The notes under the pieces: model-generated
Seen by the model: only the letters and a program-made list of their open reading frames with translations
Databases searched by the model: none
Told to the model about the DNA's origin: nothing
Assembly (NCBI GenBank): GCA_963556255.1
Contig: OY744604.1
Location: forward strand, 71,462,390 to 71,526,389
Direction: 5' to 3'
Length of the DNA: 64,000 nucleotides
From: Allolobophora icterica
Taxonomy: Eukaryota; Annelida; Clitellata; Crassiclitellata; Lumbricidae
Shown here: piece by piece, positions 1,032-57,310 of the stretch
How positions within the stretch are numbered: the stretch's first letter is position 1
How the letters are laid out: each line of letters opens with the position of its first letter
Position numbers and translations under genes: made by a program

Positions 1032-2479
1032 GTGCCATGCAAGTCTGGAGTAGATGGGATTGAGTTGCCTGTAACCCGTGTACAGATTCATTTGTAGAGG
1101 CGGCAAAGGAATGATGAGTCGTGGGATATCATCATTGAACTAAAATAGCAAAAGGATAAAGAGTTTTAGAAGCTCTCGGACATGTCAGAGTTCTTGTTGC
1201 GGGATTTCTTGTTGGAGTTGAAATTCAAGACGAACAATCGACACAGAGAACAGGCAAACTCTAAAGTGAATGATAGGCCTAATTGTAAAAACTTCAACAT
1301 AATTTTAAAATTAAATTTCTCAGTAAGATACGATAGTTCGTCGTATATCTGAAAACTGTGTAAGCTGACATTTGAACCCGCGTGCGCCTAGCGACAATGA
1401 ACGAGCCAGAAGCAACTTCTAACAATATTTAAATACATATATCGGTTTGTATTTATAGGCTAATGTATATGATGCATTAATAAAAAATTATATTTGCTCG
1501 CTGCAGTGTACTTAGTTCAAGCATATTTATATAGTTCTGCCCAGGGTTTAGTTTCACGTCGGCTTGTCGGACACTTGATTTGGGTGTCCGATGTTTGTAC
1601 CCGTAATTGCATAACTGCCGACTTAAATTATAGCCTGTCCCTTTTTAGAACGACTCCAGGATGTTGGCACCGTGGTACGTAAGTTACATGTAGGTCATCA
1701 TGTTTTTACAATTTAGATTTACGACTTAATTGTGTAATGTGTATCGATGCAGTGATATTGTCCGAAGTGTTACGCTCGTTATATTGTCGCCTTTCTGTGT
1801 AACAGGCTTGTCAGTCACGGTAAACTGTGATATTTACATAATTAGTTACATTTATAGCTTTGATTAGACTTCTCCAAGGAATTATGCCTTTTGACTATTA
1901 ATTCACTTGAAAATTAGAATCAATTGATGCATTGTGCACTATGATTTCGGCGTTACATGAGTCGTTAGCTTAGATTTAGATTTTGGCTACTTTCGGTACG
2001 CGCTATATAAAAGAAGAGAAACGGCAGAACCATAGTTTAGTCACCTTCCATCAACCATGACATTAACAACTTTCAGGATTTGCAACCATAAACAAACAGT
2101 GACATTGGAAACGGCGTGGAAAGGGAGAATGAATTTAGTCCATACATTTTAAAGATAAAATTCAATTAGATTCTATGTTCGATATGCTTCAGATATAGCG
2201 GTTACAGGAGAACAATATTGTATTATATTTGGTTAGGCTATTTTAAAGTTTTTACTACTATTCTTAGCCATGCATGATGAGACAGTTTGAAAATTTTCTT
2301 ATTTTGAAAAGCTGACTGCGATGATAGATATTACAATATTTGTCTCTGTGATTGCTTATACAATTAGGCCTATAGTTGATTAGTCCCTGTTTGGTCGCAT
2401 TCAATAAAAATATTTGCTACATCAACATCTAGTTTAAAGTAAAAGCCCAAACTGCGCAATCAGTGCTTGGTCAGTGTTA
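1032..2479. other. Non-coding stretch, no gene seen
   Basis: AT-rich unique-looking sequence without a convincing ORF, splice pair or terminal repeat. TAGGCCTA occurs at 1274 and 2365. A GCGCTATATAA motif at about 2002 resembles the dispersed repeat seen at 4070 and elsewhere. Confidence 0.5.
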
Positions 2480-2850
2480 TCGGCTGAGTTTCCAGGTCAT
2501 AATCGTAATTTAGAATTTTCTAAAGCGCTAAAGCTTTAAGAGCAGGGCACCAGTTTTTTCGTGATTGCTTCCTCGTGTCAGAGGGATTGCACAGAGATTC
2601 CAAGTGGAGGCCTAAGTACGGTTGCCAGAAGACCAGGAAGGAAAGGAGGCAGAAGCTAATGCGAATTCGCCTGGTACGAGAAAGATTGGAAGGCGCAGAA
2701 CAGGAAGAATGCTCAGGGTAGGAATTCTTCAAGAAGTGAGACTCTAGTTTGAAGTGAGTGGTGATAGAGTAGAGTGAGGTAGGTGATGGTGGGTGATTGG
2801 CGAAATTGGTAGAGGCGATATGAGTAGAGGTTTTTGCCTAAATTTCCCTT
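2480..2850 (-). repeat. Retroposon 3' fragment (L2/CR1-like relative)
   Basis: The segment around 2680-2760 (AGATTGGAAGGC..CAGAACAGG..GGTGAGACT..AGTTTG.AGTG) matches the layout of 58670-58745, which belongs to an L2/CR1-like reverse transcriptase fragment on the - strand. The part near 2520-2600 (AGCGCTAAAG..CAGGGCACCAG) also matches 29240-29290. It is a short, diverged retroposon remnant. Confidence 0.5.
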
Positions 2851-2852
2851 AG

Positions 2853-2912
2853 CGAGAGAGAGGGAGACAGACAGACAGAGACAGAGACAGAGAGAGACAG
2901 AGAGAGACAGAC

Positions 2913-2954
<42 letters not shown>

Positions 2955-2971
2955 AGAAAGAGAGAGAGATA
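2853..2971. repeat. (GA)n/(CAGA)n microsatellite
   Basis: Purine-rich GA and CAGA run. The Ser/Leu- and Arg/Glu-rich ORFs across it are artefacts. Confidence 0.95.
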
Positions 2972-4069
2972 GCCCAGAAATTGTTGCTATGGTACAAGAT
3001 GAGCAAGAAAGCGAGGTCACCGATTATGCGTCAGATTAAATTACGCATAATGCAAAGGTTGAATGTGAAAGTATGACGAAGTATTTTCAAAATAAGTGAG
3101 CATTGTGTACTTGTGTTCAGTGATGGAAGTTTGTTCTAGATAATGGAGGTTGTCAATTCTTTTTTCAGACTTTTCCTTTGCGCAATAGTTATCTCTTTTG
3201 CAATACACATATTATGATAATTCTTTGGCAAATACCAACCTTAGTCAAAACTTGATGGGCAATATGAAGTGGGTTACGGTACCCTTCCCTTGTCCATAAC
3301 GTGGAGCAAAAAGGTATCCTTTACTTCCAGAAAATTACTCGTGCCTATGCTGAATTGAAACTATAGTGAAGAATTCCGTTTTAAAATAGTAGAGAAAGAA
3401 ACAATTTAATCTGACCCTCTGATCGGGGTTCTGTCCTGTAGCCCAGGTGGGTACTGGCTTAGTCCTTTGCTCAATTTGGCACTTGTGATATTCTTGACCA
3501 GCAGATGATTATTTTCAGTTATAGTGTTCAACTTAATACATTGAGAAATGTGCAGCAATGCACAGAAACCCCCCCCCCCCGATGAGATACTTGGCTGCTA
3601 TAGCCAAACCCCACTCACTAATGCAGGTAATCTCCGCATCACGAAGAGAACAATACCTCTTCCAAGTTGCTGAGATGAGGATTACCTATTTTATAGGGCT
3701 ATAATTAATTCATTGATTCGTTTCACATCATTTACCTTTTTCACACCACTTCACGCTCACAAACACAAGCGTACGTTCATATACTTCCGCATTCAATGCT
3801 GTACTTTCGCTCTGGAGAGAAAACGGTACTGGCCGATAAACCAGGCAGGTTGATCAACCTAGCCAGTTCAAACAAATCGACGTAAAAGCACAAAGCTATA
3901 AAGTAAACAATAGAAAATAGACCACCTTCTAGCAAATTACGAACAAACAGCTTGTGCTTCAGTAGTAGTAACTACACAGTAGAAACGGGAACAGCTACTA
4001 TAGTAAAGAGCACTTGCAACCAGGACCTATTCAATGTGAAACCCTACATTTTAAAAAGAATTCATTTTC
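2972..4069. other. Non-coding stretch, no gene seen
   Basis: No supported coding exon. A run of ten C lies at about 3570-3579. Otherwise nothing recognisable. Confidence 0.4.
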
Positions 4070-7277: not shown

Positions 7278-7642
7278 GTGAGTTTAGCACTATATCTGTT
7301 TGCTAGATCTTCTTTCTCTGTATATATATATTTCTCTTTCATTGCAAACTGCCTTCGCTGGTTTTGACATTGAGTGGGTATGTGTGTGTGGGTCTACACG
7401 TGAAGTTAGTGACACCTTACGTTTCCTGGGTGAGAACTCGTCAACCGGAATTCAATGGGCGAGGATTTTCGAATTATGAGAGGATTTACGTTTCGTGTAG
7501 TTAAAGCATGTCACCGTTAACGCCTGTGTGCACACTGTAGCCGCTTGGATGCACACTCTAGCTACTTGGGTACACACTGTGGCCGCTTGGGTGAACACTG
7601 TTCAACCTGTTATATAAACTGGAGCATTATTTTTGAATTTAG
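7278..7642 (+). other. Intron of the Mab-21-like gene
   Basis: A 365-bp intron with GTGAGT donor and GAATTTAG acceptor. The last G of exon 1 plus GA of exon 2 restore one Gly codon, and the protein reads through in the family's expected order, so the junction is well supported. A short imperfect repeat (CACACTGTAGCCGCTTGG and relatives) lies at 7530-7600. Confidence 0.85.
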
Positions 7643-10284
7643 GATCCCATATGTGTACTTCATCCCCGATTTGCCTGGAAGAAACAGGACCTGCGATTCG
7701 AGACAACGATGGTTACGTTGAAGCGTCAATGGAAGGGCAGGAAGTGCACTACAATCTAGTATTTGATTTAGTCAAGAGCAAGCCTTGTCCTTACTGGCCT
7801 CCACAAGCGGATGACTTTGCTAGGCGTCGCAGAAGACACGGTTGGCCCAGTAAAAGCACCATAGATCAGATCGTCGGTCAAGGTTGTGATGTGGTCCACG
7901 TCTCTCATGCCTACCGTCGAAATACATCTGACAGGACACAATGGCGACTGTCCTTCTCCAGAGCAGAAACGATTCTGATACATTCTTGGACGCCTGTGCA
8001 GAAGATAATCTACCATATGTTAAGATACTTTTGTCGAAAACAGTTTTCCAAAGATGCTGCAATTTCCAGTTATCATCTGAAGACTCTGCTGCTCTGGAAT
8101 TGTGAAGAAAGACCTGCTGATTACTGGAAGTCATCTTGTCTTGTGCGCATTACAAGCGATCTTTTGTCACAGTTGGTTCAGAATATCAGAGAAAGGCGAC
8201 TGTTCAATTATTTTATTACGGATTGTAATCTGATGGTAAGCAAATTTGACTTGCATGATTCAAATGGACAGAGGTACGACTCTCTTATTACGAAATTATT
8301 TTCTTACACTCGAATGGAGACACTAGCGCAGTGGTTCTTTGAAAACTATATAGTACTAGCCGCAAATAAGTATTATGACAGACAATTGAATCAGTTTGTT
8401 GGCAAACTGGTCTCCCGCAAACTTACAGAAAGCGTAAATGATTCCACATTGCAGCAGGAATTTATCCGCCGATTTCTTAGTGAGTATGAGAAAGGAAAAG
8501 CGGCGAAGACGTGTGTGGAAATGGACCACTGCATTACAAATATTTTTAGTATATCTTCCAACAGTGGCATGTCCTTAGATCTGTGTAGGCTCATTTTGGA
8601 CAGATTACCTCGGATAGATTATCGATTTCTGGAGTTTTTTCGATCATTTATTTGCATGAAGGCTGCGTATCGAATAGATGAGACTGGGTGTTTGCCTGAC
8701 CACGAGACAATCAGTTTAGTTATTGAAGTCTTGCCTGTTCCTGAGAAAGTATATTTTTCGTCTTTGGATCAGTGCCACAGCGAAAGCGCAGGTTCATATT
8801 TCAGTCAAGCGTTGACGCTTCTTCTTATCGCCAGACAAACGCAAACCGAGAAGCAACTTTTGCTTGAACTAGGAAAAGCTTTCCTATTTAAATCTCTTGA
8901 GTGTGAAAATGCTAGTTCATTTTTCTGTGCAACAAGCGCTTATTTGGCTGCAATATTTTATCAAATGGAAGACTACGATAGAACGTTGGATTTTATTAAG
9001 CTTGTCTTAACAAAAGTGGATCACTCTGCTTGCGAATATTGCACAATGCAACCTTTTTTACCAATTATTGACCTTGTTCTGGGTTCCTTCGTGTCAATAT
9101 CTCCATTTGAAAATGCTGGTTTAGCACAGTGTTCTGTTCGTAATTCAGCCGATAGGTCGAGCCAGAATGATGTCACACCAGAGATGTTCGCGGATCTATT
9201 ATTAGCATACATCCCTTCCAATTGGGATCAGTTTGAGGAATTGTGCTGTGACGATGTATGCAAGAAGAAAATTCATTCTCACAAGCATTTCAGGTCACCG
9301 GATTCAGAGAGTAGAAATTCAAATTGCAGTGCAACTAAACTCAGGATATATCTTCGAGCAAATTCCGCGACACAAATTGTTGCTCAGAAGAGCGTAAATG
9401 AAACGTTTTCTGAGGATAGCATCAAAAGTCTGGTGTATTCACGTACTGGTCGAATTTACAACAGAATAAAATCTAATGCATGCGGTGAGTTCACTAAAGC
9501 AGGTGCGCCTGCAACGCGGCAATTTGAAATGTGCTACTCACGCACTGAGCATGAAGAAATATTAAAGCCTACGAAAAAGCTCAAATCTCCTGAGAATAAG
9601 AGTAAGCATTCTAAAGCGGACGTGTCTACGCAGCCTACTAGGAATCCGTGTTGGAAATTTGCGCGACAACATCATACGTTAATATCTGAAGTGGCTGCAG
9701 TTATACGACGAGACCTCATGAATGCTTTGATGAAAGTTAGTGTCATTCATATCAATACGTTTAACTTCGCCATTGAAAATGACGCAGACATATCAACAAC
9801 TGAATTTTTCCCACATCATTATATGGCACTGTATCATTTCAAATGTGGGTTGTTCCGTGAGGCCTTAGACATTTTTAGCGGCGTCCTAAGTTTAGGCCTA
9901 CAGGGCATGCTTTCTGTCCGATCCTCCTATACAGATATTATTTGTTCACCGCCATATTGGTTGCTATTGCCGGATGATCTCAAGGCGATACTAGAGGAAT
10001 ATAGAAGCACTGATGAATGCCTCACTATCGATGGACGAGTTATGGCGCTGTATATGAAGACTCAGTGCCTGGTGAACTTAGATCAACCGGCAATTGAAGT
10101 GGCTTCGACGCTGCTGCTTCTCCGCGGCTATGCTATACGGCATGAGGACGTCAGAACAGAGGCTCACGTGAAAATGTTTTCATACTTATACACGGAAGTA
10201 TTTCGAAGTTACAGAGGTATAATCACCGAAAACGAATCTAATGGTCTATCAGTGATTGAAAATGGACGTACGATAGTTATTTGG
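7643..10284 (+). CDS. Mab-21/cGAS-like receptor, large second exon
   Basis: Open for about 880 codons. The third catalytic-type Asp is in LVFDLVKS (codon 7765). Hallmarks of the Mab-21 C-lobe follow: PCPYWPPQADDFARR, a GWPS motif, GCDVVHVSHAYRR, QWRLSFSRAE and SWTPVQKIIYHMLRYF. Downstream (from about 8600) is a long helical extension; segments such as SAYLAAIFYQMEDYDRTLDF and YHFKCGLFREALDIFSGVLS look TPR-like and match the C-terminal part I know from invertebrate multi-domain members. TTG at 7633 is not a start, because the exon begins after AG at 7642. A strong donor (TTTGG|GTAAGT) follows at 10285; without splicing the frame would stop at 10338 after 18 more codons. No frameshift or premature stop is seen. 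Probable innate-immune nucleic-acid sensor or signalling protein, by family; activity is inference. Confidence 0.85.
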
Positions 10285-11225
10285 GTAAGTGTGTTGAATA
10301 TACCTGGAATAATTAAATATTATATTAAAAACATATGACAATAGCAAGTACGCATACAGTTGCTGTTAATGGGTCTTTGCATACTTATATTCCATGTTAT
10401 GTTAGCTATCGAACTGTAACATATTAAAGTATATTTAGCACTAATCAAGCCCAAACCAGTGCACTGTCAAACCCATTTCTGGGTTTTTCATACTTGTTGA
10501 GCGTTTTACCAGGCACGGTCAAATCAATACATTATACATCCTCTTCTTTTAAAACTTTCCGTCATTAATGAGATACTGTATGTTTAAATATTCCTAAGTG
10601 AAGATTAGTCCACATATGGTTGTACTGTTCAACTATGCCGTCCATCTAGTAGAGTATCTGCGTGTATAGTTGATGAATTTGGAAATTATAGCAACAGTCG
10701 TCACTTCATTCAACTGAGGGAAATTAAAAAGCTTAGTGGCAAACGCAAATCGCATCTTGAATGTTATCCCCATGACCACTTTGACACCGAATCAAAAGTC
10801 ATAATAATCTCTCTGAAGTTCCCTGCCGTTGCTGTTTATGTTTTTATTTTATAACTCTTAAATACATGTGTAGAGTTGTATACAGATGACATTTTTTAAA
10901 AGGGCCTTACCTATCGACAAGAAGACAACCTGAGTGTTGGGATTTCAGCGGCCTTCTTGAAGTTAGGCCTATTTCGTATATATGACCAATAAGAAATTAT
11001 TAAAGGCAGTTCAAAGGTTATGAATAAGATAAAACATTAGCTATTGCAACATTAATTTATTAGACAAAACGAAGCTCGGCAAGACGAAAAATGCATAATT
11101 ATTAGAAGTTCGCATAAGTCTTCGTCTGAAAGAAATAGCACGCGCTACAGTTGCTCTTTGTTTTAAAAGACGTCTCTTTCTATTATAATCGATTCGTGCA
11201 ACGCGTGAAATTATATGTCATCTGA
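10285..11225. other. Downstream/intronic sequence of the Mab-21-like gene
   Basis: Follows the GTAAGT donor at 10285. No next exon is clear. No terminal repeats recognised. Confidence 0.4.
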
Positions 11226-11960: not shown

Positions 11961-12112
11961 GTAAGTTTTATTTATTTTAAATACACTCTTTGGCTAAGAG
12001 AATGGTATGAAAGTAATTAGCTAACTAAGTAGTACCAACAAGATTGCAATTGTTGAACTAGATCAAAGGTGGTATGCTAGGCCTATCCGCGATAATTTTG
12101 TATTGTGAATAG

Positions 12113-12914
12113 TGTAACGGACCAGGATGGAGCAAACTTTCATTATTGGGCGCTATAGAAGTTGTAGTAAGGTTGGTTAGGTGCTGTGGACCTCAAGGAA
12201 GGTCAATGGGTCCTGTGAGGCCCAGTTTGATACACCAGTGAGGCCTCGTGCCTCTGTGAGGCCTCGTGCCTCAGTGAGGTCCGATGCCCGGGGACTGATG
12301 CGCGGGAAGGCCCAGTGCCCGGGGACTGATGCGCGGGAAGGCCCAGTGCCCGGGGACTGATGCCCCAGTGAGGCCCAGTGCCTCAGTGAGGCCTCGGAAA
12401 CCATATAAAAGGGGCCTCGTGCTTTGAATCGAGGGAGACGATCGCCGGGGACTATTGTGGCGAAGCCCTTGTCGGATGCTGGGACATTTTATAGGAGAAG
12501 AAGGGGTTCTCGATAGAGCAGGGTGAGACGTTTTCTTCGTGAGGCATCGATGTAATTACTGCAATTAATTCTGTACACGAAAAGATTGTTTGTTTCGACA
12601 CGAGAAGTGTTATGGTTTTGTGATTCTCTGGAAATACCGAATTATTGTGAATTTCGTGATCACTTGGATCTTAATACAAGTCTTCAATCGTCATTCGTCT
12701 TGTCATTGTTTAGTCGATCGGTTGTAAGGAAACTCGCAAGTCCTTCGACGACATCGGAGGCCTTATCTACGCGTACACGTCCAGGGCCTTCTTAACCACT
12801 CGGCTGGCCTTGGAGGTATACGGTATATTGAGAGATATACCCCGGTGAGAGAGAGGTTCATTTCCGCCACACTGGCCCCACAAGTGGGGTAGCGAAGAGC
12901 TCATTTCCGCCACA
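12113..12914 (+). repeat. 5' LTR (802 bp)
   Basis: Begins TGTAACGG and ends CCGCCACA. It holds a G/C-rich minisatellite (GCCCGGGGACTGATGC and GTGAGGCC units, about 12230-12395), then a TATA box and a transcript leader. The last 45 bp contain an extra copy of the LTR-end/PBS-like motif (TTTCCGCCACACTGGCCCCA at about 12865), a tandem duplication of the LTR/PBS border present in both LTRs. Confidence 0.95.
12404..12410 (+). promoter_or_regulatory. TATA box of the 5' LTR
   Basis: TATAAAA in CCATATAAAAGGGGCCTC just after the minisatellite; it places transcription start near 12435 and so defines a U3 of about 320 bp. The same box is in the 3' LTR at 20815-20821. Confidence 0.7.
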
Positions 12915-12975: not shown

Positions 12976-15900
12976 ATGGAAGACGAGGAGGTGATCATTC
13001 GACGAAGACCGCGGGGCATCGAGGATCCGGTCTCGGGCACTTCAACTCCCGTGAGAAGACGGCAAACGACGGAGGCCTCACCAGAACGGAGTCCTTTCGA
13101 GGTCATTGACGATGGTGACCTGAGGCCCGATGAACTGAGCGGACGAGAAAGACCAGAAGAAACAATGTCGCCACAGAAATTGCTGGAAGGCATCGGGGGC
13201 CTTCTGAAGACGAGACCGATGCAGATGAAACCAGGGAAGTTCGACGGAACCGGATCGTTGGAGTCGTTCCTGGCTCAATTCGAGGTATGTGCAACACATA
13301 ACCGATGGACGGCCTCGGATAAGATCGACTTCCTCCGATGTGCATTGGAGAAAACTGCGACTCAGTTGTTATGGGACTTCGGCGCTCGACAGGATGTAAC
13401 ATATGAAGAATTGGTCGGACGTCTGAGACAACGGTATGGCATGGAAGGCCAGGCCGAGATGTTCCGTGCGCAGCTCTACTACCGACGTCAGCGAGCTGGT
13501 GAGAACCTTAGCGACCTTCTTCATGATATTCGGCGACTTGTGGTCCTCGCGTACCCGGTTCCATCCAATGAGACTACGCAGATCATCGCCAGGGACTCTT
13601 TCTTGGAAGCCATGCGGGACCTCAAGGTTCGCGAGCGAGAGCCAAAAAGTTTGGACGAGGCCTACCGGACGGCGCTTCGTCTCGAGGCCTACCGGCAGAC
13701 GACGGATACAGACGATCGGAGAAGGCAGCCGAACAGAGTGAGAGGAACGCAAGAAGCCGACCTCGACGCTCAGATCCAGTCACGGATAGACCGCTTTCTC
13801 GCTGAGCAACGCGAGGAGCAACGAAGATGGCAACGAGAGCTGGAGAGTAACATCGACCGACAACTCCGAGAACTGCGAGGCCCAGTTGCGACGACCGATG
13901 CAACCGGGCGAGATGCTCGGCCTCCGGAAGGCAACCAAGGAGTTTCACGGCGGACGGCGGCCTGCTTCAACTGTGGCCGACCCGGTCACTTCGCTCGCAA
14001 CTGCCGGCAAGGCCGCCGGCCCTTCAATCGTCAGCCAGCAACGGCAACGGTCGGTATGGAACCGACCGATGCAACGGAGGAAGTTGTCACTAACCACACG
14101 GCGCGGTCAAGGCTTCCGAACCGCGCAACCAACAACGCCATCTACATACGAGGTATAGTCAACGGACGACCGCAGACCTGCCTCATCGACACTGGATCAG
14201 AAGTAAGCCTGGTACCGCTTTCTACTGTTGAAGGGTTAGACTTACGTCCTTGTAATCGCTTTTTGATGGCTGCTAATGGGTCTAATATACGGGTCCTTGG
14301 AGAAGTAAACATCCCGATTAAAATTCGGACGGGTTTTGAAATTCACACGGGTTTTCTGGTCTCGGACCAAGTTGCTGAACCTTTGTTAGGTATGGATTGG
14401 CTAAGGGAGCACCGATGTCGCTTAGGGTTTGGTGCTGGGGCCTTGTTTGTTGGCCGTCGACGTGTCTCTCTTGTAAGGGGCAATGGGTCCATGTGGTGCC
14501 GGCGCGTGATCGTCGCTGAGGAGGTTGTGATATCGCCTAAGTGCCAGCAGGATGTGGTAGTTAAGACGCAGTATGGGGACTTAGCTACTAAAGCGCCTGC
14601 ATGGATGAATGAGGCCGTAGAGGTCCAGCCTGGTGTTCACTTAGCCCGAGTAGTAGTAGCAGATCATGTGGATACAACTCAGGTAAGGGTGGTAAACCTT
14701 AGTGAAGACCCGGTTAAGCTAAGTAGGGACCAACTGCTAGGAGGCTTACACCCAGTAGAGGTTGAATGCAGCAGTGTTAGCAAGGAAGGCAGAGGTCGGG
14801 TTGAGGGTGATTTTTCACTTGACTTTTTGCTAGAAGATCTTCCGGAAGAGGTGGGGCCGGATGATCGTATACAGCTGCGAAACTTGTTGGCAGAATATAA
14901 GGATATATTTTCTGCAACGGAAGGAGATCTTGGTAGAACGACCGTGACTACACATAAGATAGACACCGGTGATGCACGACCGGTAAGACAGCCTTTAAGG
15001 CGACAGCCATTGCCGTATAGGACTGCAGTAGATGAGCATCTGGATAGTATGTTGGCTGCTGGGACCATTGAACCTGCTGTTAGTGAATGGGCGTCCAATG
15101 TAGTGCTGGCCCGTAAGAAAGATGGCACCTTGAGATTCTGTATTGACTATAGACAGTTGAATGATAGGACTAAGAAGGACTCGTATCCGCTTCCACGGAT
15201 TGATGAATGTTTAGACGCACTTGCTGGTGGTGGGTGGTTCAGCACCCTGGATTTACGGAGCGGCTATCACCAGGTGGCCTTGGACCAGAAAGATGCAGAC
15301 AAGACTGCCTTTGTTACACGACGGGGTATCTTTCAATGGAATGTGATGCCGTTCGGGCTCTGTAATGCGCCAAGTACTTTTCAGAGGCTGATGGATATCG
15401 TCCTCTCCGGTTTAAACTTTGAGATTTGCCTAGTTTATCTGGACGATGTGATAATTTTCGGAAGCACTATAGAACAGCATCTCGACCGATTGAAGCAGGT
15501 GTTTCAGCGACTGAGAGAGGCTAATCTAAAGCTTAAGCCTAGCAAATGCCGTTTAATGCGCAGGGCAGTTAATTTCCTAGGACACATCATTACACCAGAA
15601 GGAGTGTCGATGGACCCGTCTAAGATACAGGATGTTGTTGAGTGGCCTACCCCTCAATGGTTGAGGGATGTACGAGCATTCGTAGGGTTGTGCTCCTACT
15701 ACAGGCGCTTCATTCGTGATTTTTCTATGATAGCGGCCCCGCTATTTGCTTTGACAAAGAAGGGTAGGGCCTTCGAATGGGATTTGACCTGCCAGGAAGC
15801 ATTTGAACGGTTGAAAACCGCCTTGACAACCGCACCAATTCTAGCTTTGCCTGGGGATGAAGGAGTTTACGTGCTGGATTGTGATGCATGTGACTTAGGC

Positions 15901-16134
15901 ATAGGAGCAGTTTTGTCTCAACGCATTGAAGGCGAGGAAAGGGTAATAGCTTATGGCAGTCGTCTTCTGTCCAATGCAGAAAGGAATTACTGTGTTACTC
16001 GTAGGGAGTTGCTTGCAATAGTACACTTTACGAAGTTGTATAGACAATACCTGTTGGGTCGTCCATTTGTGTTAAGGACGGACCACGCCGCCTTGCAATG
16101 GCTTCAGCGAACTCCGGAGCCTATTGGCCAATAG
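12976..16134 (+). CDS. Gag-Pol polyprotein (Gag, protease, RT, partial RNase H)
   Basis: ATG at 12976 is 61 bp after the LTR. About residues 75-235 form a retrotransposon Gag capsid region. A CCHC knuckle (CFNCGRPGHFARNC) sits at 330-343. The aspartic protease motif DTGS is at 405-408. The reverse transcriptase has YLDD at 821-824. RNase H starts near 965 with DCDACD. Gag and Pol share one frame without a frameshift. The frame stops at UAG (16132-16134) inside RNase H, and the same frame continues at once on the other side. Whether the stop is read through or is a disabling mutation is undecided; readthrough signals normally lie between domains, so a mutation is likelier. Confidence 0.93.
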   Translation: MEDEEVIIRRRPRGIEDPVSGTSTPVRRRQTTEASPERSPFEVIDDGDLRPDELSGRERPEETMSPQKLLEGIGGLLKTRPMQMKPGKFDGTGSLESFLAQFEVCATHNRWTASDKIDFLRCALEKTATQLLWDFGARQDVTYEELVGRLRQRYGMEGQAEMFRAQLYYRRQRAGENLSDLLHDIRRLVVLAYPVPSNETTQIIARDSFLEAMRDLKVREREPKSLDEAYRTALRLEAYRQTTDTDDRRRQPNRVRGTQEADLDAQIQSRIDRFLAEQREEQRRWQRELESNIDRQLRELRGPVATTDATGRDARPPEGNQGVSRRTAACFNCGRPGHFARNCRQGRRPFNRQPATATVGMEPTDATEEVVTNHTARSRLPNRATNNAIYIRGIVNGRPQTCLIDTGSEVSLVPLSTVEGLDLRPCNRFLMAANGSNIRVLGEVNIPIKIRTGFEIHTGFLVSDQVAEPLLGMDWLREHRCRLGFGAGALFVGRRRVSLVRGNGSMWCRRVIVAEEVVISPKCQQDVVVKTQYGDLATKAPAWMNEAVEVQPGVHLARVVVADHVDTTQVRVVNLSEDPVKLSRDQLLGGLHPVEVECSSVSKEGRGRVEGDFSLDFLLEDLPEEVGPDDRIQLRNLLAEYKDIFSATEGDLGRTTVTTHKIDTGDARPVRQPLRRQPLPYRTAVDEHLDSMLAAGTIEPAVSEWASNVVLARKKDGTLRFCIDYRQLNDRTKKDSYPLPRIDECLDALAGGGWFSTLDLRSGYHQVALDQKDADKTAFVTRRGIFQWNVMPFGLCNAPSTFQRLMDIVLSGLNFEICLVYLDDVIIFGSTIEQHLDRLKQVFQRLREANLKLKPSKCRLMRRAVNFLGHIITPEGVSMDPSKIQDVVEWPTPQWLRDVRAFVGLCSYYRRFIRDFSMIAAPLFALTKKGRAFEWDLTCQEAFERLKTALTTAPILALPGDEGVYVLDCDACDLGIGAVLSQRIEGEERVIAYGSRLLSNAERNYCVTRRELLAIVHFTKLYRQYLLGRPFVLRTDHAALQWLQRTPEPIGQ

Positions 16135-17712
16135 GGGCGTTGGTTGGAAAGGTTGGCTGAGTTCGAATTTCAGATAATACACCGACCGGGTCGACAGCAT
16201 GGAAACGCGGACGCGCTTTCCAGGAAGCCATGCCGTCAATGCGGCTATGAGACTTGGAGTGAGGTAGCCGCGGTGACTGAAGTGGCGGGGCCTGGTGTAG
16301 CAGATAATGAGCCCGGGACCCCGGAGTCATTAGATAAGGCACAGGAAGAAGACCCGGACCTTGGTATAGTGAGATCGTGGCTGAAGGAAGGTGGGCAGGT
16401 CCCCGATCTTGTACAAATCCTGTATGAGAATGCTGCTATAAAGACGTATTGGCATCAACGAGAACAGTTGTATTTGCTAGGAGGCGTCTTATATCGCCGA
16501 ACGCCTGACGATGTGGAACAGTTAGTAATGCCTAAGGTCCGACGCGAAGAGTTCCTTAGGCTGGCTCACACGGGAATTACGGGAGGTCATTTGGGGACCC
16601 GACGCACAAGATGGCAAATGCGACGTAGAGCATACTGGGTAGGTTGGTCTAAAGAGACCAAACGCTTTTGTCAGCGTTGTTCACAATGCGCCCAGTACCA
16701 CCGCGGACAACCTCCTCGGCAGGGCCCGCTGCAACCACTGCCTTGTGGGGAACCCTTTGAGCGACTAAGCCTAGACATTACCGGCCCTCACCCAAGGAGC
16801 CGACGGGGTCATGTTTATATTTTAACGGTCATGGACAATTTTACTAAATTTGTCGAGGCCATTCCCATGGGTAATCAGGAAGCGATATCGGTGGCTAGAG
16901 CGTTAGTCGAAAATGTAATTGTGAGGTACGGGGCCCCGTTGCAAATACTTACTGACCAGGGAACGAATTTTGATGGGAATCTTTTCCGGGAGCTCTGTAA
17001 AATATTGGGCATTGATAAGGTCAGAACCTCTGCTTACCACCCAAGCGGAAATGGGATGATCGAAAGGTTTCACAAAACTTTAAACGCCATGTTGGGGAAG
17101 GTTATATGCAGCCATCAAAGGGATTGGGACGACGTCTTGCCCCATGTCCTGGCCGCCTACCGGGCGTCGCTGCATGAAACGACGGGCTTCAGTCCGAACT
17201 TCCTCATGTTTGGTCGCGAGGCAAGAGCACCAGTGGATCTTGTCTACGGTCGACCTCCGGATGCCGATCGCACGGATGGTACCTACGTGAGCTATGTTCG
17301 GGACTTTGCTGAACGAATGGAGAATGCATATCGACTTGTCCGCGAACAGTTGAAAGTCACGGCGGAACGACGTCGCCATACATATGATCTTCGAGTTCGT
17401 CCCGCGCGGTTCAAGTCTGGGGACCGCGTATTCTACTTCACACCGCGTCGTCATCGAGGCCGCACTCCGAAATGGACCCGTATGTTCACGGGGCCATTTA
17501 CTGTGGTGGAGCAGCGAGGAGCTGTAAACTACGTAATCCGGAAGACAGCCAATTCCAGACCGTTTACAGTGCACGTCGACAAATTAAAGTTATGTTTCGA
17601 CGAAGGGATATCAAGGGAAGAAGAGGCGCCGCTGGATCAACCAACGAGCGAAGAGACGGATAGAGGCCGACCTCGGCGAGAGACTCGCCGGCCGGCACGT
17701 TATTGTCAGTAA
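16135..17712 (+). CDS. Pol continuation: RNase H end and integrase
   Basis: Same frame as gag-pol, directly after the UAG; the apparent start at 16144 is a TTG and not a real initiator. It begins with the C-terminal RNase H block (HRPGRQHGNADALSR). The integrase H2C2 zinc domain follows (His142/His149, Cys179/Cys182 counting from 16144), then the D,D35E core with D211, D271 and E307. A GPF-type module (FTGPFTVVEQRGAVNYVIRK) follows near the C-terminus. No chromodomain is evident. Its position after RNase H is the Ty3/gypsy order. Confidence 0.92.
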   Translation, partial: GRWLERLAEFEFQIIHRPGRQHGNADALSRKPCRQCGYETWSEVAAVTEVAGPGVADNEPGTPESLDKAQEEDPDLGIVRSWLKEGGQVPDLVQILYENAAIKTYWHQREQLYLLGGVLYRRTPDDVEQLVMPKVRREEFLRLAHTGITGGHLGTRRTRWQMRRRAYWVGWSKETKRFCQRCSQCAQYHRGQPPRQGPLQPLPCGEPFERLSLDITGPHPRSRRGHVYILTVMDNFTKFVEAIPMGNQEAISVARALVENVIVRYGAPLQILTDQGTNFDGNLFRELCKILGIDKVRTSAYHPSGNGMIERFHKTLNAMLGKVICSHQRDWDDVLPHVLAAYRASLHETTGFSPNFLMFGREARAPVDLVYGRPPDADRTDGTYVSYVRDFAERMENAYRLVREQLKVTAERRRHTYDLRVRPARFKSGDRVFYFTPRRHRGRTPKWTRMFTGPFTVVEQRGAVNYVIRKTANSRPFTVHVDKLKLCFDEGISREEEAPLDQPTSEETDRGRPRRETRRPARYCQ

Positions 17713-18002
17713 AGAGGTTGACGTTGGATGGCTCGGGCCTTGCGGTTACGCCCGGACGTCCGAAGTAATGTTCTGTAGTGCAGCTGGTTGGCAACTGCTG
17801 TGACGATGCTGATCTGATAATGTTTCTGTGTTGCAGGCAGCTGGGATACTGTTGCTGTCAAGCGAATTAGCAAGGAAAGCTAGAACACAGAATACCATTC
17901 TTAACGAGGCTTTGTATTGAAAAATTGTTGCTTATAGAATGTGTAATTTAGTTTTGCTGAAGTGAAGCATAATTTTGTAATTTTTGTTCATGTAGTGATG
18001 CA

Positions 18003-18350
18003 ATGGCTGATGAGATTGACCGCACCGAAGTGGTGAGAGAAATTCTTCCCTTTGAAGACAATGTCATAGATTTTCACCTCGACGAAATTGATCTGGTGGC
18101 TTTAATGGAGGATGAAATTGATACGAGTGAATTAGAATTATTTTTGGAGTGTGCTGATGAAGCTATGGAACCGCCCTTGTCGCCGGACTTGGCCGAGCTA
18201 GAGTTGTCATCACTATTTTTCTATGGTGTGGATGAGATTGATCTCTGTGGGTTAAACATGTCGTGTCCCGATGCCTTTGAAGATTATGCATTCTTAAACT
18301 GTTGTCTTAAGGGCATCTGGTGCCCTTACAATTGGTGCTCATCTTTTTAA
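18003..18350 (+). CDS. Accessory acidic protein with DEID motifs, 115 aa
   Basis: Lies between integrase and the 3' LTR. No homologue recognised. Strongly acidic. The motif DEID occurs four times (residues 3-6, 27-30, 37-40, 77-80), twice as DEIDL. A central ELSSLFFYGVDEIDL segment resembles DVDLSSLFPY in the second accessory ORF, hinting at a shared origin. The C-terminal 30 residues hold six of the protein's cysteines. No signal peptide or membrane span, so it is not an envelope. Acidic and hydrophobic repeats would suit a transactivation or protein-binding role; that is inference. Intact ATG-to-stop frame in an otherwise young element. Confidence 0.6.
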   Translation: MADEIDRTEVVREILPFEDNVIDFHLDEIDLVALMEDEIDTSELELFLECADEAMEPPLSPDLAELELSSLFFYGVDEIDLCGLNMSCPDAFEDYAFLNCCLKGIWCPYNWCSSF

Positions 18351-18470
18351 GAGTTAACTTGAGCGGTAGTCTGATAGATTTCTTTTAAGTTACCGTGTGC
18401 ACGAGAAATTAATACTTATGCGCTATATAAATGCAATGGCTTAATTATCGTTTGGGTTGACGTAAGAGAG

Positions 18471-18655
18471 TCGTAACAATTAACGGTTTTGAATTAGCAG
18501 CGTAAGTTTTATTGTGTGGCCAAAGTTAGAAATTTGGTGTTAGATGTTATTGTTTATTGATATTGTTGGTCATTGATTAATTTAGTAGGACCGGAATAAT
18601 TAACGGTTTGAATTAGCAGCGTAAGTTTTATTGTGTGGTTAAAGTTAGAAATTTA
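18471..18655 (+). repeat. Internal tandem duplication between accessory ORFs
   Basis: A block containing GAATTAGCAGCGTAAGTTTT and ATTGTGTGG..AAAGTTAGAAATTT occurs twice about 118 bp apart (about 18490 and 18608). Each copy includes a GTAAGT sequence that could act as a splice donor. Function unknown. Confidence 0.7.
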
Positions 18656-18990
18656 AGATGTGGTGCTGTTTAATTTCGAACAAAATGCTATTGTTCAGTG
18701 ATTGTGGCCGTACGCGTTCAGTGGGGCCTAGTGCTTCAGTGGGGCCTTAGTGCCCGAGACCTTAGTGCCTGGGCTTTAGTGTTCAAGGTCTTGTCGCCTG
18801 AGGTCCTAGTGCCCAGCGAGGTCCTAGTGCCCAGTGAGGTCCAGTGCCCGGGAGGGCCCATTGGTCCTAGTGCCTCGGGGTCTTATGCCTTACGTCTTGA
18901 GCATAAAAGACATAGATTCTTCTTTTGTGTATTATTACTGTGGTCAACCGGTTACAGATCGCTAAAGACTCTCACAGATTTATATCGATC

Positions 18991-19998
18991 ATGGATCGGC
19001 GTGGATTTCGACGCTGCTCGCAATGTTTTACTTTGTTCTCCGGAAAATATGCGGGGCATTCATTGGCGAAGCATTTGAAGCACTTCCATTCAGAGGTTGT
19101 GCGACGGGTCGTTGACACTGGAGAGGTTATGGAAGTCGAAGTTGAGGCCGGACCGAGCGGTCAACGGCCAAGGGAGACAATGAACGAAGAAAGGGACGAG
19201 CACTCGTCCGACCTTCTATGTTCCGAGACTCTGGAAAAACTGCCTGGCGCTTCGTCGCTGTCGGGCTTTGAAGATGTGGACCTTTCCTCCCTGTTTCCAT
19301 ACGTGCTGGGGGGTATGGAACAGTTCGATCCGTGGCGTGGACTAGCTGAAAGCCAGTCGGGCTCGACCGCACAATCGAAACATGGAGCTGATGAACTGCT
19401 GGTCAAAGTGATGGTTGCTACGCCTCAAAATACCAAGGATGACACTCCTACTGTGAATGTTACTCGTGCCATTTTGGAGTCAGATAACTGCCAGGAAATA
19501 ATGAATTCGAATGCGACCGATCCGACGTTTTCTTCAGTGGTTGCGGTTGCGGAAACCGGCGTGGGTACACCCGAACCGGTCCCTGGACCTTCATATTCAC
19601 CTATATCTTCGCCCAGTCACTCGGAAGAAGAATTCCCTCCTGCATCCATCGCAGTAGCCCGGTCTAAGGAGTTGGCCTTGCTCTGTGATAAGGCTAAGTC
19701 GTGGAACCGCACTTGCAACCCAGAAAGGTTCGGGCACTTGGTTGCGCCGAAACTGTCGACATTTTCTGTGGAAGAAGCCGAAGATGTATTCCGCTGGTAT
19801 CAGTCCCCAAAAGAATGTCTGATTGAAAGTGTGGATATAAACATTCCCCCACCTTCAACTCCGGACCTGCGTGTGAAAGAAGAAGAAGGAGTTAAAGTTG
19901 GAGCGAGCTTGGAGTTGTCAGAAACCATAGTTATCGAGTCTGACCCAGAAATAGAGATGGTTGTGATTAGTTCGGACGAGGAACCCGATTGTAAGTAA
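18991..19998 (+). CDS. Accessory protein with Cys2His2-like finger and C-terminal SIM-like motifs, 335 aa
   Basis: First true ATG is 18991; the frame is also open upstream, but only from a non-ATG codon. Residues 9-33 form a finger-like block: Cys9, Cys12, His28, His33, with a basic start (RRGFRRCSQC). The middle is acidic and Ser/Pro-rich, with DVDLSSLFPY near residue 97 echoing the first accessory ORF. The C-terminus carries two hydrophobic-acidic motifs (IVIESDPE at 313-320, VVISSDEE at 324-331) that look like SUMO-interacting motifs, and a VKEE sumoylation-type site just before. No membrane span. Position is where env lies in errantiviruses, but it is not an envelope. DNA binding or regulatory function is inference. 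Confidence 0.65.
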   Translation: MDRRGFRRCSQCFTLFSGKYAGHSLAKHLKHFHSEVVRRVVDTGEVMEVEVEAGPSGQRPRETMNEERDEHSSDLLCSETLEKLPGASSLSGFEDVDLSSLFPYVLGGMEQFDPWRGLAESQSGSTAQSKHGADELLVKVMVATPQNTKDDTPTVNVTRAILESDNCQEIMNSNATDPTFSSVVAVAETGVGTPEPVPGPSYSPISSPSHSEEEFPPASIAVARSKELALLCDKAKSWNRTCNPERFGHLVAPKLSTFSVEEAEDVFRWYQSPKECLIESVDINIPPPSTPDLRVKEEEGVKVGASLELSETIVIESDPEIEMVVISSDEEPDCK

Positions 19999-20523
19999 AC
20001 TGTGGTCTTGATACATACAGTAGAGTTTTTCATTGTAAAGTGATTGTGGCGAAGTGCCTTCTTTTGAGTTGCAAAATGTGATCATAGTAATCGCTAATAA
20101 CTTTTTAGTTCTACGAAGTGGTTCTGAATTGTATTGCATTCCGGGATGGTTTGAGGCTGTTCTTTTTTTAGTGTTGCACTGTGAGTTGAGGATGTTTTCT
20201 TTTGGGTGACTATTGATTGAGACACTTGCAGTAGATTGTCTCGGAGGGGCCTCAGTGCCCGAGACCTTAGTGCTTTGGGCCTTAGTGCCTCGGGACTTTA
20301 TGTTATGCCTTCAGCCTAGTGTTTTTCTTTAGGTTGTAAAATGCCATTGTATTGACTCATAGTAATTACTAATGACTTTTAGTTTTACGTGATAGTTTGA
20401 AACTGCTTTCGAGGTTGCCTTTAGTGCCGAGAATGTTTTCTCTTGAATGATGATTTAATTGGAACCTTTATAGTAAATTGTCTCAGAGGGTGGGGACACC
20501 CTCTCACCCTGGCCCCCGGAGAG
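19999..20523 (+). other. 3' non-coding part of the LTR element
   Basis: No ORF. It contains scattered GGCCTTAGTGCC/GAGACCTTAGTGC repeats (also at 18716-18880) akin to the LTR minisatellite. The purine run expected before the 3' LTR is weak: only GGAGAG directly precedes it. Confidence 0.6.
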
Positions 20524-21325
20524 TGTAACGGACCAGGATGGAGCAAACTTTCATTATTGGGCGCTATAGAAGTTGTAGTAAGGTTGGTTAGGTGCTGTGG
20601 ACCTCAAGGAAGGTCAATGGGTCCTGTGAGGCCCAGTTTGATACACCAGTGAGGCCTCGTGCCTCTATGAGGCCTCGTGCCTCAGTGAGGTCCGATGCCC
20701 GGGGACTGATGCGCGGGAAGGCCCAGTGCCCGGGGACTGATGCGCGGGAAGGCCCAGTGCCCGGGGACTGATGCCCCAGTGAGGCCCAGTGCCTCAGTGA
20801 GGCCTCGGAAACCATATAAAAGGGGCCTCGTGCTTTGAATCGAGGGAGACGATCGCCGGGGACTATTGTGGCGAAGCCCTTGTCGGATGCTGGGACATTT
20901 TATAGGAGAAGAAGGGGTTCTCGATAGAGCAGGGTGAGACGTTTTCTTCGTGAGGCATCAATGTAATTACTGCAATTAATTCTGTACACGAAAAGATTGT
21001 TTGTTTCGACACGAGAAGTGTTATGGTTTTGTGATTCTCTGGAAATACCGAATTATTGTGAATTTCGTGATCACTTGGATCTTAATACAAGTCTTCAATC
21101 GTCATTCGTCTTGTCATTGTTTAGTCGATCGGTTGTAAGGAAACTCGCAAGTCCTTCGACGACATCGGAGGCCTTATCTACGCGTACACGTCCAGGGCCT
21201 TCTTAACCACTCGGCTGGCCTTGGAGGTATACGGTATATTGAGAGATATACCCCGGTGAGAGAGAGGTTCATTTCCGCCACACTGGCCCCACAAGTGGGG
21301 TAGCGAAGAGCTCATTTCCGCCACA
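20524..21325 (+). repeat. 3' LTR (802 bp)
   Basis: Same length as the 5' LTR. Two differences seen by eye (GCCTCTATGAGG against GCCTCTGTGAGG; GCATCAATG against GCATCGATG). Followed by ATAG, matching the left flank. Confidence 0.95.
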
Positions 21326-21477
21326 ATAGGCGCATGAAATTTGAACGCGCCTGAGAAAATAGTCAAAACGTCGGAAATAACGAAGTTGGATTTGATACTG
21401 CATAAAAATGACTTGAATTTCTGAATTCTTTAGTGAAAATTGCATATTTTTACGCAGGTAGATAAGCTACCCTTACT

Positions 21478-45467: not shown

Positions 45468-46049
45468 CTTAAGGCATTCGGTCGTAGGACGAATGAAAAC
45501 GTATAATGAAAGCTTGCGAGGACTCTTACCGAGATTCCCAAGCGACCATTCGCAAATCCCTGGTTTCTTTGGACATTGTGAAAGGTTATTCGACTCTTGC
45601 GCTGTCCCGGACGACCTACGAAGCAGATTACTCTTGACCTGTCTAGATAATCATGCCAGAACTGAGACAGCCAGAATTCTCACTGACTTGACCCAGAAAT
45701 CGGTGCCTGCTAAGATACCCTGGCGAGCTGAACACCAAAAGGCGCTAGATAAACTTACGCACGATTTGAATAACGCGGTATGTTTGCAGACAATTGACTA
45801 CGGCAGAGAGTTTGGTCTATCGACTGACGCTTCAGACAAAGCAGTCGGTTGCTGCTTATTCCAAATTCAAGACGATGGAACAGAACGGCCAATATGTTTC
45901 GCCAGTTCTAAATTAGATGCTACGCAAGCGCGTTGGTCCACTGTGGAACGCGAAGCGTATACTGTGATTTTTGCGTTGAAGAAGTTTAGGAATTGGATTT
46001 TTATGTCAAGGACCACCCTCTATTCTGATCACAACCCCTTGACTTTCCT

Positions 46050-46751
46050 GGTAAACGGACACTTACCCCCCTGGACATATTCCCCCGGACAGTTTCCCCC
46101 CCCGGACAGTTTCCCCCTGGACAATTTCCCCCCCATACTAGGACATTTCCCCCCAGTGCAACATACACAAAGCTTTCTGTTTTAATGATCAAAACATATA
46201 TACATACATGCATACATAGTTACATGCATACATGCATGCATACATGTTTGCATACATGCTTGCATACATACTTACATACATACTTACATCCATGAATACC
46301 TACATGCATGCATACATACATACTTGTATACATGCTTACATTCATGCAAACATACATGCATACATACATACATACATACTTACATAGATACTTACATGCA
46401 TGCATACATACATGCATACATACATACATATATACATACATACTTACATACATACTTACATACATGCATGCATACATATATACATACTTACATACATACT
46501 TACATGCATGCATACATACATGCATACATACATATATACGTACATACTTACATACATGCATACATACTTGCATACATACATGCATATATACACATATACA
46601 TACATACATACATAAATCCACAAAGGGGGAATTTGTCCGGGGGGGAAAATGACCTACCTAGATTCGGGGGGGGGAAGTGTCCGGGGGATAACTGTCCGGG
46701 GGGGAATATGTCCGGGGGGAAACTGTCCAGGGGGGTAACTGTCCGGCATTC
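46050..46751. mobile_element. Foldback-like element with GGACA-NTTNCCCCC repeats, 9-bp TSD
   Basis: Flanked by perfect GACTTTCCT (46041-46049 and 46752-46760). The ends pair as CGGACA(C/G)TTACCCCCCTG. Each side carries four to six iterations of GGACA..TT.CCCCCC, facing inward. The core is a (TACA)n microsatellite. A 9-bp duplication suggests a Mutator-like (MULE) or related mechanism; inference. Confidence 0.8.
46196..46620. repeat. (TACA)n/(TGCA) microsatellite
   Basis: Over 400 bp of TACATACATGCATACTT-type repeats inside the foldback element; ORFs are His/Tyr/Thr or Met/Tyr/Cys artefacts. Confidence 0.95.
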
Positions 46752-56298: not shown

Positions 56299-56317
56299 CT
56301 CAATGGTGGTCGCTCAC

Positions 56318-57310
56318 CTTGTATCGACTGATCTGCGGATATCTTATTGCATTGGTTTCTGGTTTGCCCAGGTAAGTTCCTGGAATCCTCAGTTGCGGAT
56401 TGTGATTGAGGGTCGAAAAGAAGATTTCGCTCGCATGTGGAATCAATTTCGACCAGTTCAACAGCTTCTGGGCATTCTCGTTGTTGACTGCGTACTCCAC
56501 GAACTCTCTCCTGGCCAAGATGTGCACGGGTCCCTTGATGGGGGTCACGTCGATCGGCGGAGGAGGTCTACCAGCAAGGCGCTCAGGATTTCCAAACTTG
56601 ATTGTTGCCCCGATTAAATTCGTATCGTTGAGAACCTTGAGGATCTGGACAAGCTCCCGGTTCGTTCTAAGCGGAAACTCCTGACCAGTGAGATTTATAA
56701 AGTACTTCCACTTCTTGTACTTTAGCAAGGCTTCCATGCACAGGATATCCGGTTCGATGACTGAATATGTACCCCAGGTAACTTCGATATTGTTTGTCAG
56801 AACAAAGACGTTGTCTAAGCATCCGGCTATTTTTCCGACTGCTGTGTGCAGACTTGAATCGGCCTTTTTGTCGACGTGAACGCAGTAGAAGTTTTGTGGA
56901 CGATAGATAGCTCTTAGAAGTCTCTCGAAGAGTTCGATGTCCTTGAAGACAAGCAGATCAAACGCCAAAGGAAAATTCTTCTCTTCTTCACTAGAGGGCG
57001 ATGTGATGTAACCCCGAGTTTCAACGAACTTCTCACAGTCGCCGGCCATGTTGATGTATTCTTCATTTGTAATCGCCTTCTTTGGGTGATTTTTCTGGTA
57101 CTCCTCTGCCCAGCGCAGTTCCACTTCATCTCCTTTCATCAAGCGGACACAGTCGACTGGAGAACGGACACGGCTGAATGCTTTGATCGGATTTCTCTTA
57201 AGATTGTACAGTCTTTGATCATTTTTTCGGTCGATCTTATATAGGCCTACCATAAGCCACACAGCTAAGATTCCAAAGAGGAACTTCACTGCTCTTCGAA
57301 TTGATAACAT
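56318..57310 (-). CDS. Core-2/GCNT-type beta-1,6-N-acetylglucosaminyltransferase, main exon
   Basis: ATG at 57310. It would add GlcNAc in beta-1,6 linkage to glycans (mucin core 2 or branching) in the Golgi. 331 residues on this exon plus 84 from a terminal exon give 415, close to the usual length of about 430. Residues 8-24 form the type II signal anchor. The catalytic part starts near 115 (PLAFDLLVFKDIELFERLLR, NFYCVHVDKKAD), continues with VTWGTYSVIEPDILCMEAL and YFINLTGQEFPLRTNREL, and reaches Glu295 in HASEIFF, the place of the catalytic Glu (SPDE in mammals). The exon ends CGATACAAG|GTGAGC in phase 0 and joins either terminal exon. Acceptor specificity cannot be told from sequence. Confidence 0.92.

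Follow-up and report, generated by a model that had tools for sequence, protein, structure and literature searches.

In a 64,000-nucleotide stretch of the Allolobophora icterica genome (contig OY744604.1, forward strand; hereafter the window), we analysed a Ty3/gypsy element of about 9.2 kb with two accessory open reading frames (ORFs), ORF1 and ORF2, between its integrase and its 3' long terminal repeat (LTR). Comparison with its relatives revealed that this copy is a deletion derivative, and that the pair is part of a three-gene set, ZCCHC24-like - ORF1 - ORF2 (Table 1). The original prediction, made from the letters of the window, of intact ORFs of 115 and 335 residues in an element whose LTRs differ at about two positions was correct, since two mismatches (12256 and 12549) separate the 802-bp LTRs. 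The LTR termini are TG...CA, the element is flanked by a 4-bp target duplication, ATAG, and its Pfam domains follow the gypsy order CCHC, protease, reverse transcriptase (RT), RNase H, integrase; by this pol order, by its ends and by a duplication within the expected 4-6 bp, it belongs to Ty3/gypsy (Metaviridae). The Troyka lineage, characterized in PMC12440569 by CG...CG ends and 3-bp duplications, was rejected. Two further features had escaped the original prediction, the remnant of the third gene (17832-17870) and a single in-frame stop in pol (16132-16134), between RNase H and integrase; copies L050 and L051 have no stop at the equivalent position.

Table 1. Features of the element, in window coordinates
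Feature	Positions	Strand	Remarks
Target-site duplication ATAG	12109..12112, second copy 21326-21329
5' LTR	12113..12914	+	GC-rich repeats in U3; TATA box TATAAA at 12404
gag-pol frame: CCHC, protease, RT, RNase H	12976..16134	+	closes at in-frame stop
pol, integrase part	16144..17712	+	same frame as gag-pol
Acceptor-like tract after integrase	17823..17836	+	rank 2 of 528 element-interior AG sites
ZCCHC24-like remnant	17832..17870	+	deletion product that keeps the final 12 codons and the stop
Acceptor-like tract just before ORF1 ATG	17982..17995	+	rank 6 of 528; GTAG in most of 40 copies
ORF1	18003..18350	+	115 aa; 30 acidic and 3 basic residues
ORF1 signature ELELSSLF	18195..18218	+
Internal GC-rich array, LTR U3-like	18717..18880	+	upstream of ORF2
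TATA-like box CATAAA	18902..18907	+	89 nt before ORF2 ATG
ORF2	18991..19998	+	335 aa from ATG (357 aa from the tool-chosen TTG start)
ORF2 Cys/His finger	19015..19089	+	residues 9-33
ORF2 segment EDVDLSSLF	19270..19296	+	of the kind shared with ORF1
ORF2 SIM-like motifs IVIESDPE, VVISSDEE	19927..19983	+	two motifs
3' LTR	20524..21325	+	2 differences from 5' LTR over 802 bp

The protein features predicted for the two ORFs were largely confirmed. ORF1 is acidic and contains four DEID motifs, which start at residues 3, 27, 37 and 77, and four or more such motifs appeared in none of 100,000 shuffled sequences. The Cys2His2-like finger of ORF2 is present, with C9, C12, H23, H28 and H33 identical across the four full ORF2 proteins aligned; its C2H2-like spacing is a judgement by eye, as the classical Pfam signature was not recovered and one of five ORF2 members matched one C2H2 model at a best E of 1.1. 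The two SUMO-interacting motif (SIM)-like sequences at the C terminus of ORF2 begin at residues 313 and 324 and are retained as SIM-like tails in all five ORF2 types read; they are not striking by composition alone, because 6.5% of 20,000 ORF2 shuffles contain as many. Since the highest 19-residue hydropathy is only 0.95 in ORF1 and 0.74 in ORF2, neither protein has a membrane span, as had been claimed, and neither corresponds to the membrane-spanning third ORF of env-type (errantivirus) elements.

ORF1 and ORF2 do share a (D/E)LSSLF segment (ELELSSLF and EDVDLSSLF, respectively). The pattern for this segment, set after both were known, had these two as its sole matches in 52,559 six-frame window residues (stretches of at least 40), and it arose in 13 of 20,000 shuffles of ORF1 and 8 of 20,000 of ORF2. 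The suggestion that one ORF arose from the other is, however, unsupported, only this short motif being common to them; descent over the full length was rejected because the best alignment is weak (15 of 500 shuffles equal it) and leaves the LSSLF segments unpaired. When about 5.8 billion protein sequences were searched with ORF1 or ORF2 alone, no relative was obtained at E <= 0.01. A search with the ORF2 alignment, in which the 7998 candidates richest in shared words were scored, gave one 219-residue protein (P0001), 37% identical across 47% of ORF2, whose start resembles by eye that of the type b ORF2 described below. Nothing among the PDB sequences matched at E <= 0.05, and no relative turned up in one scan of viral contigs.

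The distribution of the cassette was analysed in the window's own genome. A DNA search with ORF1 gave 46 candidates, and all 40 that were scored match ORF1 at 79-100% identity; these 40 copies, among them the window copy (L048), were fetched with their flanks. ORF1, taken as open when it ran from ATG to stop within limits of 105-118 residues, is open in 33 of them at 109-116 residues (not in L030, L031, L034, L036, L038, L043 and L046), and all 33 products are acidic, with 28-33 acidic against 1-4 basic residues. Because a sample drawn with ORF1 is biased, the integrase was used as second query, and 33 of the best 40 among its 208 candidates have an ORF1 match 0.4-1.5 kb downstream. L067, an integrase match without a listed ORF1, contains a complete ZCCHC24-like gene and ORF1 residues 1-58, and in the other six the 1.7 kb read contains nothing that matches ORF1 or ORF2, although blocks of the accessory DNA around them persist. 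In L030, a 619-residue open frame after the broken ORF1 (1780-3636 as oriented) resembles by eye a non-LTR reverse transcriptase.

The complete ZCCHC24-like gene of the relatives encodes 245 residues and lies between integrase and ORF1. Its product matches zf-CCHC_2 (30.5-32.1 bits) and Zn_ribbon_3CxxC_2 (63.9-65.7 bits) in three of three proteins, above the Pfam cut-offs of 27, and the C-terminal domain of ZCCHC24 at 18.6-23.6 bits, under its cut-off of 27. An open ZCCHC24-like frame runs to its stop directly upstream of ORF1 in 25 of the 40 copies, in which the fetched DNA covers about the last 140-150 codons, and each metal-ligand-type Cys or His of the zinc knuckle and the 3CxxC ribbon is conserved in 24 or 25 of these 25 frames. 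One of them, L026, is evidently broken further upstream, since the full-length search gives two pieces in different frames. The gene is reduced to 12 codons in L009, L036 and L048, gives no match in L011, L019, L020, L033, L034 and L045, and is truncated, broken, extended or incompletely fetched in L017, L021, L039, L041, L042 and L044. In the window's family as a whole, residues 1-245 are matched without a stop at 26 places, and there are copies in which all three genes are open.

Within the window's family, purifying selection acts on the accessory genes. The ratio of nonsynonymous to synonymous divergence (dN/dS), calculated by the Nei-Gojobori method for pairs with dS above 0.05 and biased low because only open frames entered, has a median of 0.19 for ORF1 (29 distinct sequences, 376 pairs, range 0-0.50), 0.20 for the ZCCHC24-like part (23 distinct sequences, 228 pairs, range 0.06-0.78) and 0.29 for ORF2 (6 sequences, 13 of 15 pairs, range 0.21-0.61), the pairs between ORF2 types a and b being near saturation (dS 1.7-2.1). 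All 13 ORF2 pairs thus lie below 1, the outcome that had been proposed as a check.

ORF2 is rarer than ORF1, and a DNA search with it yielded 8 candidates with 10 matches; six of these matches are full length. It is open as type a (335 residues) in L009, L016, L017, L020 and L048 and as type b (364 residues) in L026, broken in L014 and L040, internally deleted in L015 and reduced to one of its ends in L021, L022, L024, L031 and L035. A type c ORF2 (L062) is 56% identical over the aligned part, with a frame change after residue 33. The many copies without ORF2 include, among those with type I LTRs, several deletion end points, often near the flanking GC-rich arrays as judged by eye. For the ZCCHC24-like gene, at least five different deletion junctions were distinguished by eye among the copies lacking it, in short repeats such as GCAGCT; one junction is common to the window copy and L009 and another to L019, L020 and L045, and these common junctions indicate that copies without the gene were multiplied.

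The accessory genes are also associated with particular LTRs. The tree of the 33 open ORF1 sequences falls into two main groups, one of 14 (group 1) and one of 19 (group 2), and a type I U3 start is found in 13 of the 14 members of group 1 (the exception being L045) and is missing from 18 of the 19 members of group 2 (the exception being L014). Likewise, full or partial type a ORF2 genes go with type I LTRs (7 of 7) and full or remnant type b genes with type II (7 of 7), an agreement in all 14 copies with ORF2 or a remnant. The ORF1 of L014 looks recombinant by eye, its N-terminal half resembling group 2 and its C-terminal half group 1. A comparison of L017 and L024, both with the ZCCHC24-like gene and taken with their upstream pieces, gave 93-100% identity per 100 columns from near the gag end through that gene, 88% just before ORF1, 78-84% within it and 61-72% after it. 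L041 and L042 lie 7.7 kb apart on one strand (C8:23184874-23196251) with identical ORF1 genes, and they are probably a tandem pair with a common LTR because gag restarts after LTR sequence in L041.

Diverged element families contain parts of the cassette, too. A search of the genome with the ZCCHC24-like protein gave 293 candidates, and all 150 stretches scored match it, with a stop inside the match in 11; their identities cluster near 100-82, 56-52, 51-45 and 43-40%, with some values between. No cellular ZCCHC24 gene was identified among these 150, in which cellular and mobile copies are unsorted. Outside the window's family, the sequence was read at four loci (L070, L071, L072 and L073), and in two of them an ORF1 homologue follows the ZCCHC24-like gene. 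L070 (54%) has an integrase 88% identical to that of the window's element over the 137 residues compared, the ZCCHC24-like gene and an ORF1 homologue of 128 residues, and L071 has degenerate integrase pieces, the ZCCHC24-like gene (48-49% in the genome search, 43% in a local tblastn) and an ORF1 homologue of 144 residues with two LFFY motifs; the score of the window ORF1 against either homologue exceeds those of all 1000 shuffles. L072 (C1:92642867-92646220) and L073 (C7:51252657-51255986) are copies of one repeat; their 3.3 kb contain a ZCCHC24-like gene, about 40% identical, but nothing that matches integrase or ORF1, and many of the matches at 40-43% identity may be this same repeat.

When the ORF1 of L070 served as query, 129 candidates yielded 83 places, and 33 of the 35 matches covering residues 1-128 are free of stops. 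A ZCCHC24-like gene lies within 2.2 kb upstream at 69 of the 83 places and not at the other 14, when the places are set beside the top 104 rows of the 150 ZCCHC24-like matches; the 69 correspond to 62 distinct ZCCHC24-like loci, and some ORF1 genes were counted as two pieces. A protein search with ORF2 returned 64 candidates and, from these, 38 places; among its finger-only matches (residues 1-42 or so) are four open frames of 379-384 residues, about 0.5-0.7 kb past the end of an ORF1 homologue in the 54% group, and five of 294-304 residues elsewhere. From the former set, L074 encodes a 377-residue ORF2 homologue with the tail IVIESDDD and TIIISSESDSD, and this homologue outscores all 300 shuffles whether or not its finger is included. 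From the latter, L075, known from its accessory ORFs alone and counted as a locus with an ORF2-like gene rather than as an LTR element, has a 113-residue ORF1-like ORF (by eye) and a 283-residue ORF2-like ORF with the tail VVVISSGSENEDD; this ORF2-like product beats all 300 shuffles only when the finger is included, the remainder being no better than shuffles. Since homologues are found at many places in the genome, a captured fragment present only here was rejected.

The region preceding ORF2 resembles an LTR promoter. Its alignment with the LTR scores 90, against a mean of 34 and a maximum of 55 in 100 shuffles, and a GC-rich array and TATA-like box precede ORF2 in all five types (a, b, c, L074 and L075). 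TATAAA, CATAAA or TATATA is present 44-90 nt before the ORF2 ATG in eight of eight cases (window, L016, L020, L026, L040, L062, L074 and L075), and such boxes lie 55-100 nt upstream of 35 of the 663 host ATGs taken from the window as control and of 2 of the 122 in the element interior. With an array motif set picked after the window was seen, 2 of the 1260 remaining ATGs on the window's plus strand have both array and box, and these two ATGs lie inside LTRs. As far as its layout goes, the element thus has, as foamy viruses do, a promoter-like unit with LTR-shared elements before a 3' gene of putative regulatory function. Candidate splice signals were ranked with weight matrices, and the ranks stand for consensus matches; besides the two acceptor-like tracts of Table 1, of which the one ending at 17836 joins directly to the last ZCCHC24-like codons in the window copy, the LTR has donor-like sites at 12523 (rank 4 of 555) and 12845 (rank 6).

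From the selection and the architecture observed we infer a regulatory function, and the reading we prefer, at slightly less than an even chance, is that ORF2 would be a DNA-binding regulator made from an internal U3-like promoter and working in a Tas-like manner, with ORF1 as acidic cofactor, within an accessory cassette. The zinc finger of ORF2, expressed from the GC-rich array and TATA-like box, would bind the array repeats both internally and in the LTR U3 and drive LTR transcription, which SUMO-type contacts at the C terminus may tune. ORF1 would be an activation-domain-like cofactor, probably expressed from an mRNA spliced at the acceptors just upstream, and may share a partner with ORF2 through the (D/E)LSSLF motif; the ZCCHC24-like protein would be a captured RNA-binding zinc protein whose target may be element or host mRNA. 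The products of the cassette could act in trans, and for this reason copies could lose the first gene, as the window copy did, or the third and yet be copied. The original prediction had proposed regulators of host chromatin, SUMO pathways or LTR transcription, and an action on LTR transcription is favoured because the U3-like array and TATA-like box precede ORF2. A wider claim, which we regard as possible but somewhat doubtful, is that an animal gypsy lineage independently evolved a complex-retrovirus-like regulation without env, comprising a captured RNA binder, an acidic cofactor, a self-promoted zinc-finger transactivator matched to its own U3, feedback control and trans support of deletion derivatives.

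Several results weigh against a regulatory pair of this kind. ORF2 is open and full length in 6 of the 40 copies, window included, and the objection raised beforehand, that other copies might lack the ORFs or carry them broken, applies in part to ORF2, with its many deletions, whereas ORF1 withstands it (33 of 40 open, homologues in other families). The openness of ORF1 is itself modest evidence, because in a neutral substitution-only simulation 40 changes leave it open 20% of the time and 60 changes 10%; in the same type of simulation ORF2 is open in 7% at 73 changes and in 0.1% at 200. Pfam is silent on both proteins, no model matching ORF1 and none, zinc-finger models included, matching the window ORF2 at E <= 1, and the single-sequence AlphaFold models of ORF1 and ORF2 are unusable (mean pLDDT 33 and 37). 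The agreement of ORF2 and LTR types may be mere linkage, because the two are neighbours along the element. The region after ORF2 shows no likeness to the LTR (score 43, shuffle maximum 61), the window-derived array motifs have 2 matches in L074, which shows another GC-rich repeat by eye, and 11 in L075, and the TATA-like box of L075, at 44 nt, falls outside the control range of 55-100 nt. The acceptor-like site before ORF2 (18957) is weak, at rank 51 of 528. Finally, the ZCCHC24 motif UGUWHWWA is not enriched in the four element parts and is absent from the accessory region, and on these counts an enrichment of this motif in the element was rejected.

Alternatively, the cassette might counter host silencing, the ORF2 tail and finger engaging SUMO or chromatin factors and ORF1 serving as an acidic decoy, and would then protect the element rather than activate it. 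We consider this unlikely: SIM-like tails in five of five ORF2 types, the strong acidity of ORF1 and a divergence of ORF2 far above that of ORF1 (44% identity between the two main types, against about 80%), as an arms race might give, are what it would lead one to expect, but SIM-like motifs are not rare by composition, dN/dS of ORF2 is below 1 in every pair used, and transcriptional feedback better accounts for the internal array and TATA-like box. That the proteins act on element RNA, in unspliced export, translation or packaging, in a CERV-like manner and with the ZCCHC24-like protein as RNA binder, appears quite unlikely. Its zinc knuckle and 3CxxC ribbon, the mRNA binding and stabilization described for ZCCHC24 (PMC11624195) and the two high-ranking acceptor-like sites, suggestive of spliced RNAs that need management, fit such a role; nevertheless, the window and eight other fetched copies lack the gene or keep 12 codons of it, and some of these have been multiplied, the published ZCCHC24 motif shows no enrichment, and the acidic ORF1 would hardly bind RNA itself. 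That the extra ORFs are an env-like gene of the ordinary sort, or captured pieces of the host genome with no present role, an idea that the frequency of third ORFs in LTR elements (PMC5408684) and the resemblance of the ZCCHC24-like gene to a cellular one might encourage, is very improbable and already contradicted by the lack of a membrane span, the purifying selection and the recurrence of the same gene order in other families.

Complex retroviruses are known to carry regulatory accessory genes that have an internal promoter. If the three-gene cassette is conserved in a retrotransposon lineage, its layout would demonstrate that elements without env, too, can evolve regulation of this sort; the deletion derivatives and the matched ORF2 and U3 types would offer natural experiments on its working, and the ZCCHC24-like protein is indicated as a recurrent retroelement gene. 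In foamy viruses, Bel1/Tas is described as binding internal and LTR promoters (PMC517496), and the layout is alike in that a regulatory gene lies near the 3' end behind an internal promoter with elements also found in the LTR; the element described here differs in being a gypsy element without env, with a promoter activity that is predicted. No Tas homology of ORF2 emerged from the Pfam, protein or viral-contig searches, none of which was a direct comparison of ORF2 with Tas. As described for the bdelloid rotifer LTR retrotransposons (PMC5408684), non-envelope genes were captured after pol, are common to several element types and are modular, but their ORF3 products are enzymes (GDSL esterase, DEDDy exonuclease), whereas the element in A. 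icterica has up to three small regulatory-looking genes, one of them ZCCHC24-like, and an internal U3-like array. The Ty3/gypsy elements of Phalaenopsis that carry an AlkB-type m6A demethylase (PMC9289625) likewise represent the capture by gypsy of a cellular-type gene acting on RNA; they differ in gene, host and number of accessory genes, and by their description activity was demonstrated there, as against sequence here. Cer1 of C. elegans, with a further protein, CERV, reported as needed for genomic RNA export (PMC10309623), is a possible parallel, being an LTR retrotransposon that likewise encodes an additional protein. Cellular ZCCHC24, as described (PMC11624195), has the same zinc knuckle and 3CxxC ribbon and a weakly similar C terminus, the element version being a single open frame in many copies. 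No description of such a cassette was found in the titles and abstract openings of the literature on gypsy accessory genes and on ZCCHC24/3CxxC retroelements.

Elsewhere in the window, ARAGORN found no tRNA and Rfam no match at gathering thresholds. A frame of 901 residues with Mab-21 domains occupies 7633-10335, another gypsy-like fragment of RNase H (E 3e-28) lies at 45493-46182 with a repeat-rich stretch after it, and a Core-2/I-branching enzyme domain (E 2e-35) is encoded on the minus strand at 56303-57310.

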